NCBI GenBank assembly: GCA_963854735.1
Contig: OY978101.1
Location: 1,302,001 to 1,366,000, forward strand
Length of the DNA stretch: 64,000 nt
Source of the DNA: Marvania coccoides
Taxonomy: Eukaryota > Chlorophyta > Trebouxiophyceae > Chlorellales > Chlorellaceae
Direction: 5' to 3'
In this document: one piece after another, positions 57,901-64,000 of the stretch
Numbering within the stretch: the first letter of the stretch is position 1
How the letters are laid out: each line of letters starts with the position of its first letter
Program-made: the position numbers and the translations under genes
Notes under the pieces: model-generated
Told to the model about the DNA's origin: nothing
Seen by the model: the letters and a program-made list of their open reading frames with translations, nothing else
The model's database searches: none

Positions 57901-59244
57901 TTCTGGGCTACCCCGTGATGATCCGTCCCTCGTTTGTACTGGGTGGCCGCGCCATGGAGATCGTCTACTCTGACGAGGGCGTGAAGCGGTACATCAACAC
58001 TGCCGTGGAGGTAAGAAGAGTGAATTATGTATGAAATATGAAATATGATATCGTGCATTGTTCCAGATATGTCTGCAGCATTCACATGGACGCTATGTTT
58101 ATATCGTTTAAACGCATCTGGAAGCTTTTAAACGGGTATTTATGTTTGCATTTATAAAATAGGTGCACTTCGAGCCCCTCTAACATTTCGAGCTTTCTGG
58201 CCAATTTTCTCACCGCCGTTGTTCCCTCATTTTCTTTCGCTTCAGGTCGATCCCGACCGCCCAGTGCTGGTCGACAAGTACCTGGACCGCGCTGACGAGC
58301 TTGACGTCGACGCTCTGGCCGACCAAGAGGGCAACGTCGTCATTTGTGGCATCATGCAGCACATCGAGCAAGCCGGCGTCCACTCCGGCGACTCCGCCTG
58401 CTCCATCCCCCCTCAGACCATCTCGCAGTCCGCGCTGGAAACCATCCGCGACTGGACCCCCAAGATCGCGCGCGCGCTCAACGTGGTTGGCCTCATCAAC
58501 ATCCAGTACGCTGTCCAGGACAACGAAGTTTACATCATCGAGGCTAATCCCCGGGCTTCCCGTACTGTGCCCTTCGTGGCCAAGGCCATCGGTCACCCGC
58601 TGGCCAAGTACGCCTCCCTCATCATGTCTGGCGTCACCCTGAAAGAGCTGAATTTTACGGCTGAGCCGGTGCTGAACCACGTGGCGGTGAAGGAGGCGGT
58701 GCTGCCGTTTGAGAAGTTCCCGGGCGCGGACACGCTGCTGGGGCCGGAGATGCGGTCGACGGGCGAGGTGATGGGCCTGGACAAGACGTTCGCCAAGGCC
58801 TACGCCAAGGCTGCCATCGCGGCGGGGCAGCAGCTGCCGGACAGCGGCAACGTCTTCATTTCCATGATGGACAAGTACAAGGATGCTGCTGTGCCCATCG
58901 CCAAGGAGCTTGCGGACATGGGCTACGGCATCCTGGCCACCTACCACACAGCTGCCGTGCTGCGCAAGGAGGGAGTGCCCAACGTTCAAAGCGTGCTGAA
59001 GATCCAGGAAGGGCGGCCCAACGCGGGGGATATGCTGAAGAACGGGGAGATTCAGATGATGTTTGTGACCACCGCGGGCGACGAGGGAGACGTGCGCGAC
59101 GGCAGGGATCTGCGGCGGTTGGCGCTGGCGGCGAAAGTGCCGCTGATCACGACGCTGGCGGGGGCCAACGCCACCGTGCAGGCGCTGCGGGGGATGAAGG
59201 AGGACGGCGGCCTGGAGCAGGTGCCGCTGCAGGACTACTTTTAA
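54904..59244 (+). CDS. carB: Carbamoyl-phosphate synthase large chain, plastid-targeted
   Basis: Exons 54904-55167, 55295-55341, 55557-56763, 56933-57475, 57609-58010 and 58246-59244 give 1153 aa. The large subunit makes carbamoyl phosphate from bicarbonate, ammonia and two ATP for arginine and pyrimidine synthesis. Residues 1-55 form a Ser/Arg/Val-rich transit peptide. The two homologous halves start at [22 protein letters not shown] and [20 protein letters not shown] (about residues 75 and 625). Each half has an ATP-grasp domain ([40 protein letters not shown]). The MGS-like regulatory domain covers about 1020-1153 ([20 protein letters not shown]). The length equals bacterial CarB plus the transit peptide; a separate small chain is expected elsewhere. 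Introns 3 and 4 have GC donors (CAG|GCAAGT, ACG|GCGAGT), both forced by frame. Confidence 0.97.
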
Positions 59245-60056
59245 ATAGAGTCAACCCTGAAAAATTACCATCCATACCGTGCACCCTCTGCTCTTTTTTT
59301 TGCTCTTCTTTTTCATAGTATAATTAACAAAAAACAAGCAACAGCAACAGGGGCAGTTTAATTTGTTTATTTTCCTTTGAGCTTTTTGTGTGGGCAGGCC
59401 GTGCGTGATGTATTCTTTCTTGCGAGTCCTCCTGTGTGATGATTGTTTCCTCGCTTTTCTTTGCCTCCTCTCCCTTTTCTCTTGAAAGTTTCTCTTCACC
59501 TCCTGGAGGGCGCTTCCCTGGGGGAGCTGGCGGGGCAATGCTCGACGTGGTTGGAAGTAAGCAGTGATGATTTGATGATAAAATGAATTTTCTTCCGTTT
59601 TCCTCCATCTGTTTCGTGATATTTTTGTGGTCAGACCTCCCCCCATACATTTAACAACAAACATTACGCGCTATCAAGCAACGCCACCACTGCAGCTACT
59701 AAAGTGCTTAATTGTTACAAGAGGGGAGGGATAAGAGAAGAAGGGAAACGGCCGTCATAAAATGCAGGGGGTCAAGGAAGGTCAGCTGGGAGGAGGAGGA
59801 AAGAAAGAAGAGAAAAACACAGGTCAAAGGGAGCAGCAGCAGCAGCTCATGTTATTGGGAAACATAGACTGTATACACACCAAATAATGCGCTGCCAAAG
59901 TCATTCTTTTTTCATTTTTCTGCGGTACTATCGCACGGTGCTTTTCAGGTCATTCATGGTCTATCAAACGCACAATCAAACACCGACAATTGTGGAGAAC
60001 ACTCCTCTCCACAGTGCGTGCAAATACTGCACTGGTTCTTTCTTTTCTTACTTTCT
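59245..60056. other. Convergent spacer between carbamoyl-phosphate synthase and the H4 variant
   Basis: 812 bases with T-rich and purine-rich blocks and a (CAG)n stretch near 59837. A minus-strand Lys-rich frame at 59324-59650 lacks codon bias and is not accepted. Likely 3' UTRs. Confidence 0.5.
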
Positions 60057-60987
60057 CTATGCCACAAACCACACCAGGCGCTGGCGGGTGGCATCATCGC
60101 TGGTCACCATCACCGCGTCCTGCTCCTCCAGAGCCTCCAGCACCACGTCCAGCTCGGCGCCGGAGCAGGCGGCCTTGTTGCGGCCCAGCATGTGGCCGTT
60201 GATCCACTCCAGCACGGTGGGGAAGGGGGCATCGGAGCGGGACTTGCGGGCGACCTCGGTGTCCCGATAAGCAGCCAGAGCCACCTGAATGTCCTGCGCG
60301 CGCTCGGGGATGACCTCCACAGGGGTGGAGGTCTCCTCTGGGGCGGTCTGGCGGGTGCGGCGCACGGTGGTGAGCTGAATTTGGGCAGCCGGAGCGGCGG
60401 AGGCGGGAGGAGAGTTAAAGGTGCCGTTGCGTGTGGCCACGCGCTGGGCCGCCGCAGCCAGAGAGTGGCGAGGCAGCGGGCGAGACAGCCTGCGGCGCTT
60501 CTCGGTCATGGTGAAGCCGTAGAGGGTGCTGCACGATTCGAAAATGTGTGGAAACAATGTGGGGCATTGGAGGGTGAGTTTCGGGGTATCTAGAGACCTC
60601 GGGAGCAGAGTTTTTATTGCATATTATAGATAGGCACTCGTAAACTCACACTCCGTTGCGCTTGAGCGCCATGAGGATGTCATTGATAGTGATTGTCATC
60701 CGCCGGGCGTGCTCCGCGAAGGCTGCGGCGTCGCGGATCATTTTGGCGAGCCAGAAGCGCATAGCGGTGGGGGCCTCGTCGTAAACGCCCGCGTTAATGC
60801 GCTTCACGCCTGCACGCCTGGCCAGGCGACGCAGAGAAGGCTTGCTGAGCGCGGAACTGCCGTCATAGATCTTGTGCTGGAGCCGTTTGAGCCCCTTCCG
60901 GCCGCTGCCCAGCCCCCCGGAGAGCGATTTGCCACCGCCCATTCCGATTTTACCAACGCCTTTGCCGCCGGAGCCGCGCTGGGCCAT
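60057..60987 (-). CDS. Divergent histone H4 variant with ~150-residue C-terminal extension
   Basis: Exons 60650-60987 and 60057-60528 give 269 aa with phases closing exactly. Residues 1-117 are H4-like: a Gly/Lys tail (GKGVGKIGMGGGKS), KPSLRRLARRAGVKRI (canonical KPAIRRLARRGGVKRI), an FWLAKMIRDAAAFAEHARRM helix, ITINDILMALKRNGV and TLYGF (canonical ALKRQGRTLYGF). Unlike canonical H4, which ends two residues later, the frame runs on for 152 residues: a basic start (TEKRRRLSRPLPRH), an Ala/Thr/Pro linker, then a helical module ending FPTVLEWINGHMLG, SGAELDVVLEALEEQDAVMV and RLVWFVA. The intron, divergence and extension mark it as a variant rather than a replication-dependent core gene. The basic 16-20 patch (KRHRK) is not conserved as such. 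TAF6 also ends its fold in LYGF, but RRLARRAGVKRI favours H4. Confidence 0.88.
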
Positions 60988-61274
60988 GGTTGCGGTGATT
61001 AATTGTTTGACTTTATACAAAGAAGTATTGTGTGCGTCCTAACACCAAATTAATAATATGAATTGCGAAAAACGAGCGCTGTCGCTGTTTGAAAATTTTG
61101 CGATTTGAATTTTTGTGACGGGAAAGCGAGAAAAACAGCCATTATTTCGACTGGGCTTCCTGACAATATTACGCTAAAATCAACGCTTACCGATTCCGCC
61201 CATCATACTAATGAGTCCTAGCCGCATCACATAAAATATTAACGAAAGTTTGAAAGAATTGAACATTTTCGCAG
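60988..61274. promoter_or_regulatory. Bidirectional promoter region: H4 variant / ePHD-SET protein
   Basis: Roughly 290-480 bases between the H4-variant start and the first secure exon of the SET gene. AT-rich; short 5' exons of the SET gene may lie inside it. No classical histone promoter elements were recognised. Confidence 0.45.
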
Positions 61275-64000
61275 AAGGAGACTGACGAGGACGCCTTGGG
61301 AAATGTTATAGGCGGCAATGCCGACACGTACGTTCTTATATTTTGCAGACTCCATCCCCACATGCCGCCTACAGACCACATCGGTTGCGACCATATCTCA
61401 TATTTAATTTCAATCGTCACCATCTCCCTCACCCGTGCCCCCGCTTCCCTCCTTCCCCCCGCAGAAAAACGGGTGGCTAGGGCTCTGAACAGCCAGCATG
61501 CTGCGGGCGACTCGTGCTGCTTCTGCCAACGGTCTGCGGGGGTCACCGCCCCTGCCTCGCTGTCCTCCCTGCTCGTCTGCACAGCCGCCATAACGCCCTT
61601 CTCGTACCACGAGGCCTGCGCCGCCTTCAGTGCCGCCATTTCTCCGGCGCTGACCGGCACCCCCCCGGCCGCCATCACCCCATGGCGGCTCCTCGGAGAG
61701 ATGCAGCGCAGCGGGAACGTGCAGTGCTGCATCTGCCGCCGCAGGGGGGGTAACCTGCTGTGCGCCGCCCCCGGGTGCACCCAGTGCTACCACCTGCCGT
61801 GCGCGCGGGAAGCAGCGATGGGCCCCCTGGCCGTGCCCACAGCGATCAAACCAATGTTTGATGCTGGGGGCCCTAGGGTCGCCTGTGGCGCGCACGCCGC
61901 CCTGATCATGTCCCCGCTGAAGGAGCCCGCGGGGATGTGGTTCGAGAGCTGCGACGGGTGGGCCAAAAACTGCCCAGCGGTGCAGCGGCAGAGGGAAGCG
62001 GAGACGGCGGCGGCGCCAGCTGACAGCAGGGTGAATGCGGATGCAGGCCGTTTTGTCGCGCCTGGGCGCACGGCCTCGGCAGGGCTGCCGCCGCGCCAGA
62101 GCTCGGGGGCAGCAGAGCAGCGCTCGTGGCACATTCCTGGTCATGACTGGGAGTGCGCTGCTTGTTTAGAGGGAAATTTGCCGCCGCTGCGGCCGGGGGA
62201 GCGGCGGGTGCTGTGCGTGACGCTGTCCCGCAAAGTCGCCGACGCCTTCGACGTGGTGCAGACCGCGTTTCTGGCCGCTGCCAAGCGGGAAAGGGAAAGT
62301 GGGAAAAGGCTGCGGCAGGTGCTGCCGCTGTGCCCCTGCGACGATGACATTCCAGACGATGGGATGGCCAGCATCACCAGCCACATTACGCAGGTCATTC
62401 GGAGGGAGGCAGGGTTGCGGAGAAGCAACATCCACACCATAGGGGATGTTGCTCAGCTGCCTGAGTCAGCCCCGTTTCACCCGTCCTTAGAAGTGTTCAG
62501 CATCTCACCTGACGACCCTCGCCGGGGGCTAGCGGCTGAGCAGGGAGCCAAGGGGGTGCGGGTGCGGCTGGGCAGGCCAGCCATCGAGCCGTTCAAGCTG
62601 CTTGGGTTTTACGGCGGGCTGCAGCTGTTTCGAGAGGACTTCCGCGCCATGCACGACGATGAGGAGCTGGCCAAGGCGCTCAACTTCAAAGTGGTCAACC
62701 AGCTGGCCACCAAGCTGGAGTGCTATGGCGCGGACGAAGGTGAGGCAGGGAAAAAACGGACGGGGGTTTGAGAGAGCGACCATGGGAGGGAGTCTACTTC
62801 GTCGAGTTTTGAGCGGAGACTTGAAGCAGAGGGTTCCTTTCGGGAACACAATGAGGGGCTCTGGGGCTAAAGCTACAAGAGGTGGTTTGTTGTTATCTTG
62901 TTTGTTTTCTTCTTTGCATCCACCGCAGATCAAATGCACAATGTGGCGGGACACGACGCCTTCCCTGAGGCGCGCTTCTGCTGGCAAACCGTAGGGGATC
63001 GTTGCAAGACCTCAGGGTGGCTGGGCACCACTGCCTTTCTCTACGGTACGATAATTCAATTATAGCACAGAATAGCCATTTTTTGTCTAGTTTTTTTTTT
63101 TGTTTTGTATATGAATATTTTACCGATTCCTTGCAATTACGGCTTTACGCCTGCGTTTTCCCTTTCTCTATAGAAAACTCACTATGGCTATTTTTTCTGA
63201 CACAATTTCCCCCCCGCCCCGCTCTCTTTCTTCTTTATGCACCAGGCAACGTGACCTGCCTCATCAACGACCCCTCCATCGAGCCGTTCGCCCCCGTGGT
63301 CCTGAGCGTGCCCCCACCCGTCCTCTCCCAGCCCAACTGCCGTATGGTCACGGTGCTAGTCAGGGGGTGGCCCTTCACGGCGCTCGTTTCCACCCGCAGA
63401 ATAGAGCCGGAGGAGGAGCTGCTGTACCTGTACAACGGGCACCATGATGAGCCCGGTGTGATTGGGTACTGGTCCAATTTCAAGGAGTTGGTAGATAAAG
63501 AGAAACAGGCGCTGCTGGTGCTCACTCTCAAGGAGCAAATGGCGAAATTAAAGGCAGAACTGGACAGAGCAAAGGCTGAAGGTGGCAGCAGCGCGGCGGT
63601 GGCGGCAGCTGCGGCGGCGGTGGGAGGCACTGAGGACAGTGGGCACCAAAACAAACCTGAGACGCCGCCGGATGAGAACGAGCGGCTGACGGCTGCAGGG
63701 GGCAGAGGCGGTGAGGTGGCGCCAGCGGAAGAGAGCGTCGCTGTGGGAGCGGGGCCAGCTGCCGCCGCAGGCGGCACAGCAGCAGCAGCAGAAGCAGCTG
63801 GTGACGGCAGGAAGATGCTGCCAGCTGAGACGGCGGCGTCTTCGCCACTGCAGCTGCCACGGCGGCGCAGCAGGGGCTCTGCTGCTGCTGGTGGGAGCGG
63901 GGAGCGGGGCGACTGGCAGCGCAAGTGGGACCGTGCTGACTATTCTGAGCACAGCTACCACACGTCTCGACACCAGAGCACCTACCACTCTCGCAGCCGC
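61275..64000 (+). CDS. ePHD-SET domain protein, 5' end unresolved, 3' end beyond window
   Basis: Secure exons are 61465-62739, 62929-63045 and 63246-64000 (continues). An upstream exon near 61275-61327 (ETDEDALGNVIGGNADT) is likely, but its donor is unclear: a GT donor breaks phase and only a GC donor restores it. The extended PHD module is clear: SCCFCQRSAG, then CCICRRRGGNLLCAAPGC, CYHLPCAREAAMG and VACGAHAAL, the C4HC2H pattern. A C-terminal SET-like domain follows: LGFYGGLQLFREDF, FCWQTVGDRCKTSGWLGTTA, GNVTCLINDPSIEP, PNCRMVTVLVRGWPFTALVS and TRRIEPEEELLYLYNG. The NHxCxPN box reads INDP...PNC, so catalysis is uncertain. A coiled coil and an Arg/Ser-rich tail come after. Probably a chromatin reader or lysine methyltransferase. 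Confidence 0.82.

Follow-up and report, generated by a model that had tools for sequence, protein, structure and literature searches.

A histone H4 variant with a probable MCM3-type winged helix in trebouxiophyte green algae

Histone H4 is regarded as the most conserved core histone, and a folded addition to a core histone is known from macroH2A, in which a linker is followed by a folded non-histone C-terminal domain. In the parts of the literature that were consulted, described H4 variants carry small tail changes or substitutions. The openly licensed literature was searched for an H4 fused to a winged helix or for algal H4 variants, and no such fusion was described in what was consulted, which is not proof of absence. 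Here we describe a gene on a 64,000-nucleotide stretch of Marvania coccoides DNA (contig OY978101.1, positions 1,302,001 to 1,366,000, forward strand; this whole stretch is called the window below), which encodes an H4 variant of 269 amino acids with a long C-terminal extension. We are highly confident that this variant, which we assign to trebouxiophyte green algae, is built from an H4 core that shares one origin with those of its relatives, followed by a flexible linker and, at the C-terminus, an MCM3-type winged helix. According to the available portions of two reports, the winged helix of MCM3 touches both Cdc6 and ORC2 during MCM2-7 recruitment in yeast and human (PMC5538431, PMC11711466). 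The H4 variant, present also in related algae, may tie packaged DNA to the replication-start machinery.

Gene model and relatives

The gene lies on the minus strand, and its two exons, both of which are open, are joined in phase across a 121-base intron. An earlier reading, made from the letters of the window alone (the sequence-only reading), had proposed this arrangement, which is confirmed by the open frame and backed by the proteins of relatives. It had also placed a long extension behind the usual H4 end, and this stands, while the length it gave (152 residues) has to be corrected: the H4 part ends at F118 and 151 further residues follow. The features are as follows.

60650-60987, minus strand: exon 1, which holds the start codon, the tail at the N-terminus and the H4 fold as far as base 2 of codon V113 (ALKRNGV); open frame and H4 match
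60850-60987, minus strand: altered N-terminal tail, residues 1-46; by-eye comparison with canonical H4 of the same genome
60529-60649, minus strand: intron of 121 bases (GTGAGT...GTGCAG, phase 2); sequence, read-through of P0001 at the same place, and starts of P0002, P0003, P0010 and P0011 around it
60057-60528, minus strand: exon 2, with the last H4 residues TLYGF, linker, winged helix and stop codon; open frame and relatives
60306-60512, minus strand: linker of residues 119-187, flexible and basic (net charge +7); AlphaFold2 model, charge and low conservation
60060-60305, minus strand: probable MCM3-type winged helix, residues 188-269, acidic, with an isoelectric point (pI) of 4.7; Pfam WH_MCM3_C at 21.4 bits (cut-off 27), AlphaFold2 model, structural match and charge
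59715-59719, minus strand: TGTAA, a possible poly(A) signal 338 bases past the stop, the sole match in 600 bases; a 5-base match is weak evidence

Relatives were sought in three protein searches, each of which scored only the approximately 8000 candidates with the most shared words, so the distribution given here is a lower bound. The single-sequence search returned 14 proteins at an expectation value (E) of up to 1, the full-length profile search 24, including all of these 14, and the extension-only profile search 10, none of them new. Three of the 24 (P0014, P0023 and P0024) have no extension and were dropped from the family. Among the other 21, eleven are H4 proteins with an extension (P0001, P0009, P0013 and P0015-P0022), which answers the suggestion of the sequence-only reading that extended H4 be looked for in related algae, and ten are pieces of exon 2 (P0002-P0008 and P0010-P0012). 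The H4 and extension are uninterrupted in P0009, P0013 and P0015-P0022, and P0001 has 45 extra residues read through at the intron position (ALKRNGV^TLYGY). The exon-2 pieces start upstream of TLYG (P0002, P0003 and P0011), at LYG (P0010) or at the next methionine (P0004-P0008 and P0012), and would be explained if gene callers stopped at the intron. The named relatives, Parachlorella kessleri (P0013), Picochlorum sp. BPE23 (P0018), Micractinium tetrahymenae (P0022) and P0017, a eukprot record labelled Picre1 and presumably Picochlorum renovo, all fall in the green algal class Trebouxiophyceae. No relative was found in the viral contigs and prokaryote genome contigs that were scanned. Within its own genome (22.46 Mb in 15 contigs searched) the extension is single copy, and 21 chlorophyll-binding-protein matches in the same genome indicate a photosynthetic alga.

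Comparison of the window protein with P0001 gave identities of 76% for the H4 core, 73% for the winged helix and 35% for the linker. The corresponding values were 67, 47 and 32% with P0009 and 57, 29 and 17% with P0013; when P0009 is compared with P0013, conservation of the winged helix (31%) does not exceed that of the linker (33%). These data bear on whether two adjacent genes, or a pseudogene, have been read as one. The gene model is drawn from genomic and protein sequence, and on this evidence we consider such an artefact hardly credible: the frame is conserved across both exons, uninterrupted fusions occur in other algae, and between the window and P0001 the linker is less conserved than either domain.

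Some of the proteins returned are unusual in themselves. P0021 has a shorter, different-looking extension with an end that resembles a winged helix by eye (VLIAQLENDGTFTLDKSSADPIVYYSF), and in the tree described below its H4 core falls among those of the extended H4s. P0023 and P0024 are single proteins of 441 residues resembling an H4-H3 pair plus further histone folds, as in giant viruses, and P0023 has a match to the H2A C-terminus. P0014, which is named histone H4, has about 270 extra residues ahead of the H4 fold and could be a wrong gene join.

The H4 core

Residues 23-118 matched H4 of the PDB, the best chain scoring 89.8 bits (E 1.8e-24) in a sequence search. Profiles of other histone folds scored 24.1 bits (TAF, over its cut-off of 21 by 3.1) and 28.1 bits (CENP-T, at its cut-off), although profile bits and sequence-search bits come from different scoring schemes, and the CENP-T profile also matched the genome's seven canonical H4 genes at 31.8-32.3 bits. 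A better fit to TAF6- or CENP-type folds, which the sequence-only reading had named as one outcome that would refute it, was therefore not seen. The assignment of the variant to H4 is supported by this sequence match, by the tree of H4 cores and by the fold of a relative. The fold prediction was checked on P0009 in place of the window protein; in the Foldseek search with this model, ranks 1-33 went to chains from nucleosome or H3-H4 entries at 39-51% identity, with a best E of 0.023 and probabilities of 0.98-1.00, and we take these to be H4 chains.

Over 72 residues the variant core is 51% identical to canonical H4, compared with 76% to P0001, 67% to P0009 and 57% to P0013, and eight differences from canonical H4 are common to all four members compared (window, P0001, P0009 and P0013). 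The tree was calculated from 14 rows (13 different) and 72 columns, with eight of the twelve extended proteins that have an H4 part, the window counted; P0015, P0016, P0017 and P0019 were omitted as near-copies of P0018. The cores of the eight extended H4s were on one side of a branch with 98/98 support, and the six other rows, namely three canonical H4s, P0014 and two viral-type rows, were on the other; long branches were flagged for P0022, P0009 and P0013. Because of this branch and the eight shared differences, a single common origin of the extended cores is well supported at the level of sequence.

Basic positions R36, R39, R40, K44, R45, R77, R78 and K91 are kept in the same four members, and R35 and R92 in three of them. 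On the other hand, none of the four retains R55, K79 or R95, and all of them have a changed Y88. We assume that the kept residues have DNA-side roles as in H4, and the roles usually given to the four changed ones are likewise assumed here. The tail (residues 1-46) retains a GGKG..GK stretch and not the canonical spacing of tail lysines, as judged by eye against the canonical H4 of the same genome. An H4-derived histone-fold subunit acting outside nucleosomes in another complex, in the manner of TAF6 or CENP-T, would fit the changes at R55, K79, Y88 and R95 and the TAF and CENP-T profile scores at or over their cut-offs. We consider it distinctly unlikely, however, given the 89.8-bit match to H4, the CENP-T matches of canonical H4 itself and the nine or more basic positions that are kept; the tree included no TAF or CENP-T row and has no direct bearing on this point. 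H3 is probably the partner of the H4 core, which would bring the variant into some nucleosomes or H3-H4 complexes.

The C-terminal winged helix

In the AlphaFold2 model, the folded part of the extension comprises approximately 82 residues (188-269) in the order helix-strand-helix-helix-strand-strand, and the preceding linker (119-187) has helices predicted in its first part and low-confidence chain after it. The winged helix that the sequence-only reading had recognized at the C-terminus is thus retained, but it is not confined to the last 55 or so residues. That reading had also compared it with MCM3, a likeness that now draws support from Pfam, from two structure models and from similarity to the MCM3 C-terminus of the same genome over three other MCMs.

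The Pfam family WH_MCM3_C (PF23191) matched all but three of the 22 members (P0009, P0013 and P0021), the E values of the other 19 being 0.1 or lower and the best 1.6e-5. None of the matches was over the curated cut-off of 27 bits (window 21.4, best member 25.5), and membership of PF23191 is for this reason graded as only probable; P0012 carries PF23191.2 in the precomputed annotation of its database. No other Pfam family matched the window extension, even at E up to 10. An MCM helicase subunit was considered and rejected, since no MCM domain was among the families matched at that threshold. The top structural match of two models was 9lxd_B 736-808 (73 of 73 residues, 1.5 and 1.6 A; 20% identity in the alignment of the window model), with other winged helices tied; for the window model, ESCRT-II, cullin and MCM4 matches were tied with the top row. 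The matched segment fits human MCM3 741-808 and entry 9lxd is present in MCM3 lists, and we take the match to be the MCM3 C-terminus.

The comparison within the genome used four MCM C-termini (L016, L013, L015 and L018), leaving out L012, L014, L017 and the split gene L019-L021. The family profile reached 14.8 bits on the C-terminus of the alga's own MCM3, and none of the three others scored above 0.7. When 1000 shuffles were compared with this MCM3, those scoring as high numbered 3 for the window, 4 for P0012, 2 for P0009, 20 for P0001 and 196 for P0013, whereas the three other MCM C-termini did not stand out (lowest 254 of 1000). A repeat with 2000 shuffles gave 6 (window), 9 (P0012), 5 (P0009), 386 (P0013), 107 (P0018) and 1 (P0022), and the same number against human MCM3 gave 46, 144, 0, 64, 111 and 429, respectively. 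Alignment of the family with MCM3 by hhalign was weak (probability 46 at best), BLASTP gave no alignment between the window domain and that of the alga's own MCM3, and no MCM3 came up when PDB sequences were searched with the extension, whether as one sequence or in profile form. A PDB sequence search with the alga's own MCM3 C-terminus alone recovered neither human nor yeast MCM3. The PF23191 search of the genome found only the H4-variant locus and missed the alga's own MCM3 at E up to 0.1, indicating that PF23191 is a poor detector of the MCM3 domain of this lineage; this MCM3 had been located through its MCM domain. The domain of the variant probably descends from the winged helix of MCM3.

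Among the 21 members with the charge anchor, the pI of the winged helix was 4.5-5.6 in all but P0009 (6.8); it was 4.7 in both the window and the alga's own MCM3 domain. The net charge of the recognition helix was -2 to -6 in 20 of these 21 (window, -6), the remaining one being P0022 (+1), for which the pattern had probably picked up a different part of the sequence. Because the domain and its recognition helix are acidic, like the alga's own MCM3 domain, a protein is a likelier ligand of the winged helix than DNA. The globular domain of linker histones is in the same general fold class, and a nucleosome with a built-in linker histone, whose winged helix binds DNA as that of H1 does, would share this fold; this is very improbable in view of the acidity, and none of the 15 families matched was a linker-histone family.

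Gene type, possible role and known systems

The seven canonical H4 genes, whose presence elsewhere in the genome the sequence-only reading had proposed to check, lie on contigs C11 (six) and C4 (one) and encode 103 amino acids each. In all seven, a histone 3' stem-loop (RF00032) was found 63-78 bases past the stop; the scores (19.4-24.8 bits, E 0.008-0.9) are under the gathering score of 34, yet the place and strand are correct each time. At E up to 10, RF00032 matched nothing at the variant locus (L009). A canonical replication-dependent H4 is ruled out by the intron, the place on C5 instead of C11 or C4, and the lack of a stem-loop. With one copy, an intron, a place away from the histone clusters and no stem-loop, the anatomy of the variant looks like that of a replication-independent, polyadenylated histone gene. 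TGTAA, which is listed above as a possible poly(A) signal of the variant, is the motif that serves this purpose in green algae. In total, 16 matches of the stem-loop family, all under the gathering score, were seen at histone loci L001-L007, L024 and L031, and the algal histone stem-loop may merit its own model.

The same genome encodes a divergent H3 (L032/L010, G000:C6:674804-675091; Histone profile 136 bits), also without an RF00032 match at E up to 10, which has FRWTAE and VHLLEDCNLCAIHAKR, features that we take to be those of plant CENP-A. A nucleosomal H4 variant might carry its winged helix for a partner outside licensing, for example at a centromere with this CENP-A-like H3. Winged helices serve many complexes, as the ties with ESCRT-II, cullin and MCM4 illustrate, but WH_MCM3_C was the sole family on the extension and nothing links the variant to the divergent H3; we regard this explanation as fairly unlikely.

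The role that we favor, tentatively as a whole chain, is that of a chromatin-borne H4 variant that offers ORC/Cdc6 an MCM3-type handle. The linker starts at the normal H4 end and would let the winged helix reach outward; the H4 C-terminal end lies at the H2A docking face. The acidic winged helix, binding protein rather than DNA, would most likely engage the same surfaces of ORC2 and Cdc6 as the winged helix of MCM3 does in MCM2-7 loading, and the genome encodes ORC2 and a Cdc6-family C-terminal domain. A nucleosome bearing the variant would then mark or recruit the licensing machinery, and a place at special chromatin or replication sites, as the sequence-only reading had put it, is plausible. 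A further step, in which an H4 with its own MCM3 handle for ORC/Cdc6 serves as a heritable nucleosome mark for origins, so that licensing is written into chromatin by histone deposition, is doubtful. The same anatomy and predicted domain would also suit a licensing decoy, in which the winged helix on H4 fills the ORC/Cdc6 site meant for MCM3, keeps more MCM from being loaded on variant chromatin and limits re-replication; the domain is present without the helicase that it normally recruits. We consider the decoy unlikely, with the reservation that recruitment and blocking are indistinguishable from sequence. With a folded replication-type domain on a conserved H4, culturable green algae would offer a natural fusion between the nucleosome and the machinery of licensing, and the part of chromatin in specifying origins where DNA sequence does not would become directly testable.

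Around the variant, the window holds a 3' exon of the carbamoyl-phosphate synthase large chain at 58132-59241 (plus strand; CPSase_L_D2 and MGS domains), which is convergent with the H4 variant and ends near 59244. An open reading frame with a PHD-like zinc finger (zf-HC5HC2H, 30.1 bits) at 61263-62771 (plus strand) is divergent from it. The next frame, 62969-64000, resembles the end of a SET domain by eye and had no Pfam match in that frame.

Among the H4 variants described in the literature consulted, the nearest is the ascomycete H4E, which likewise has a separate gene, its own intron layout and changed tails with altered tail lysines. In contrast to the algal variant, the Aspergillus nidulans C-terminus is only 7 residues longer, the available part of the report mentions no folded domain, and no function was found for H4E (PMC10878826). 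Trypanosoma H4.V is also a divergent H4 and forms nucleosomes, and that part of the same report mentions no long C-terminal domain for it (PMC10878826). The H3.V-H4.V nucleosome was Foldseek rank 1 for the P0009 model. The winged helix of the variant resembles that of MCM3 (PF23191) in its predicted fold and shares with it a chain end just past the last strand, the acidity and, with the alga's own MCM3, an LE.QD..M motif, whereas it sits on H4 instead of an AAA+ helicase, scores below the Pfam cut-off and is 20% identical in the structural alignment. The nearest design is macroH2A, which resembles the variant in joining a core histone, a linker and a folded C-terminal domain, and differs in being built on H2A rather than H4 and in carrying a macro domain instead of an MCM3-type winged helix.
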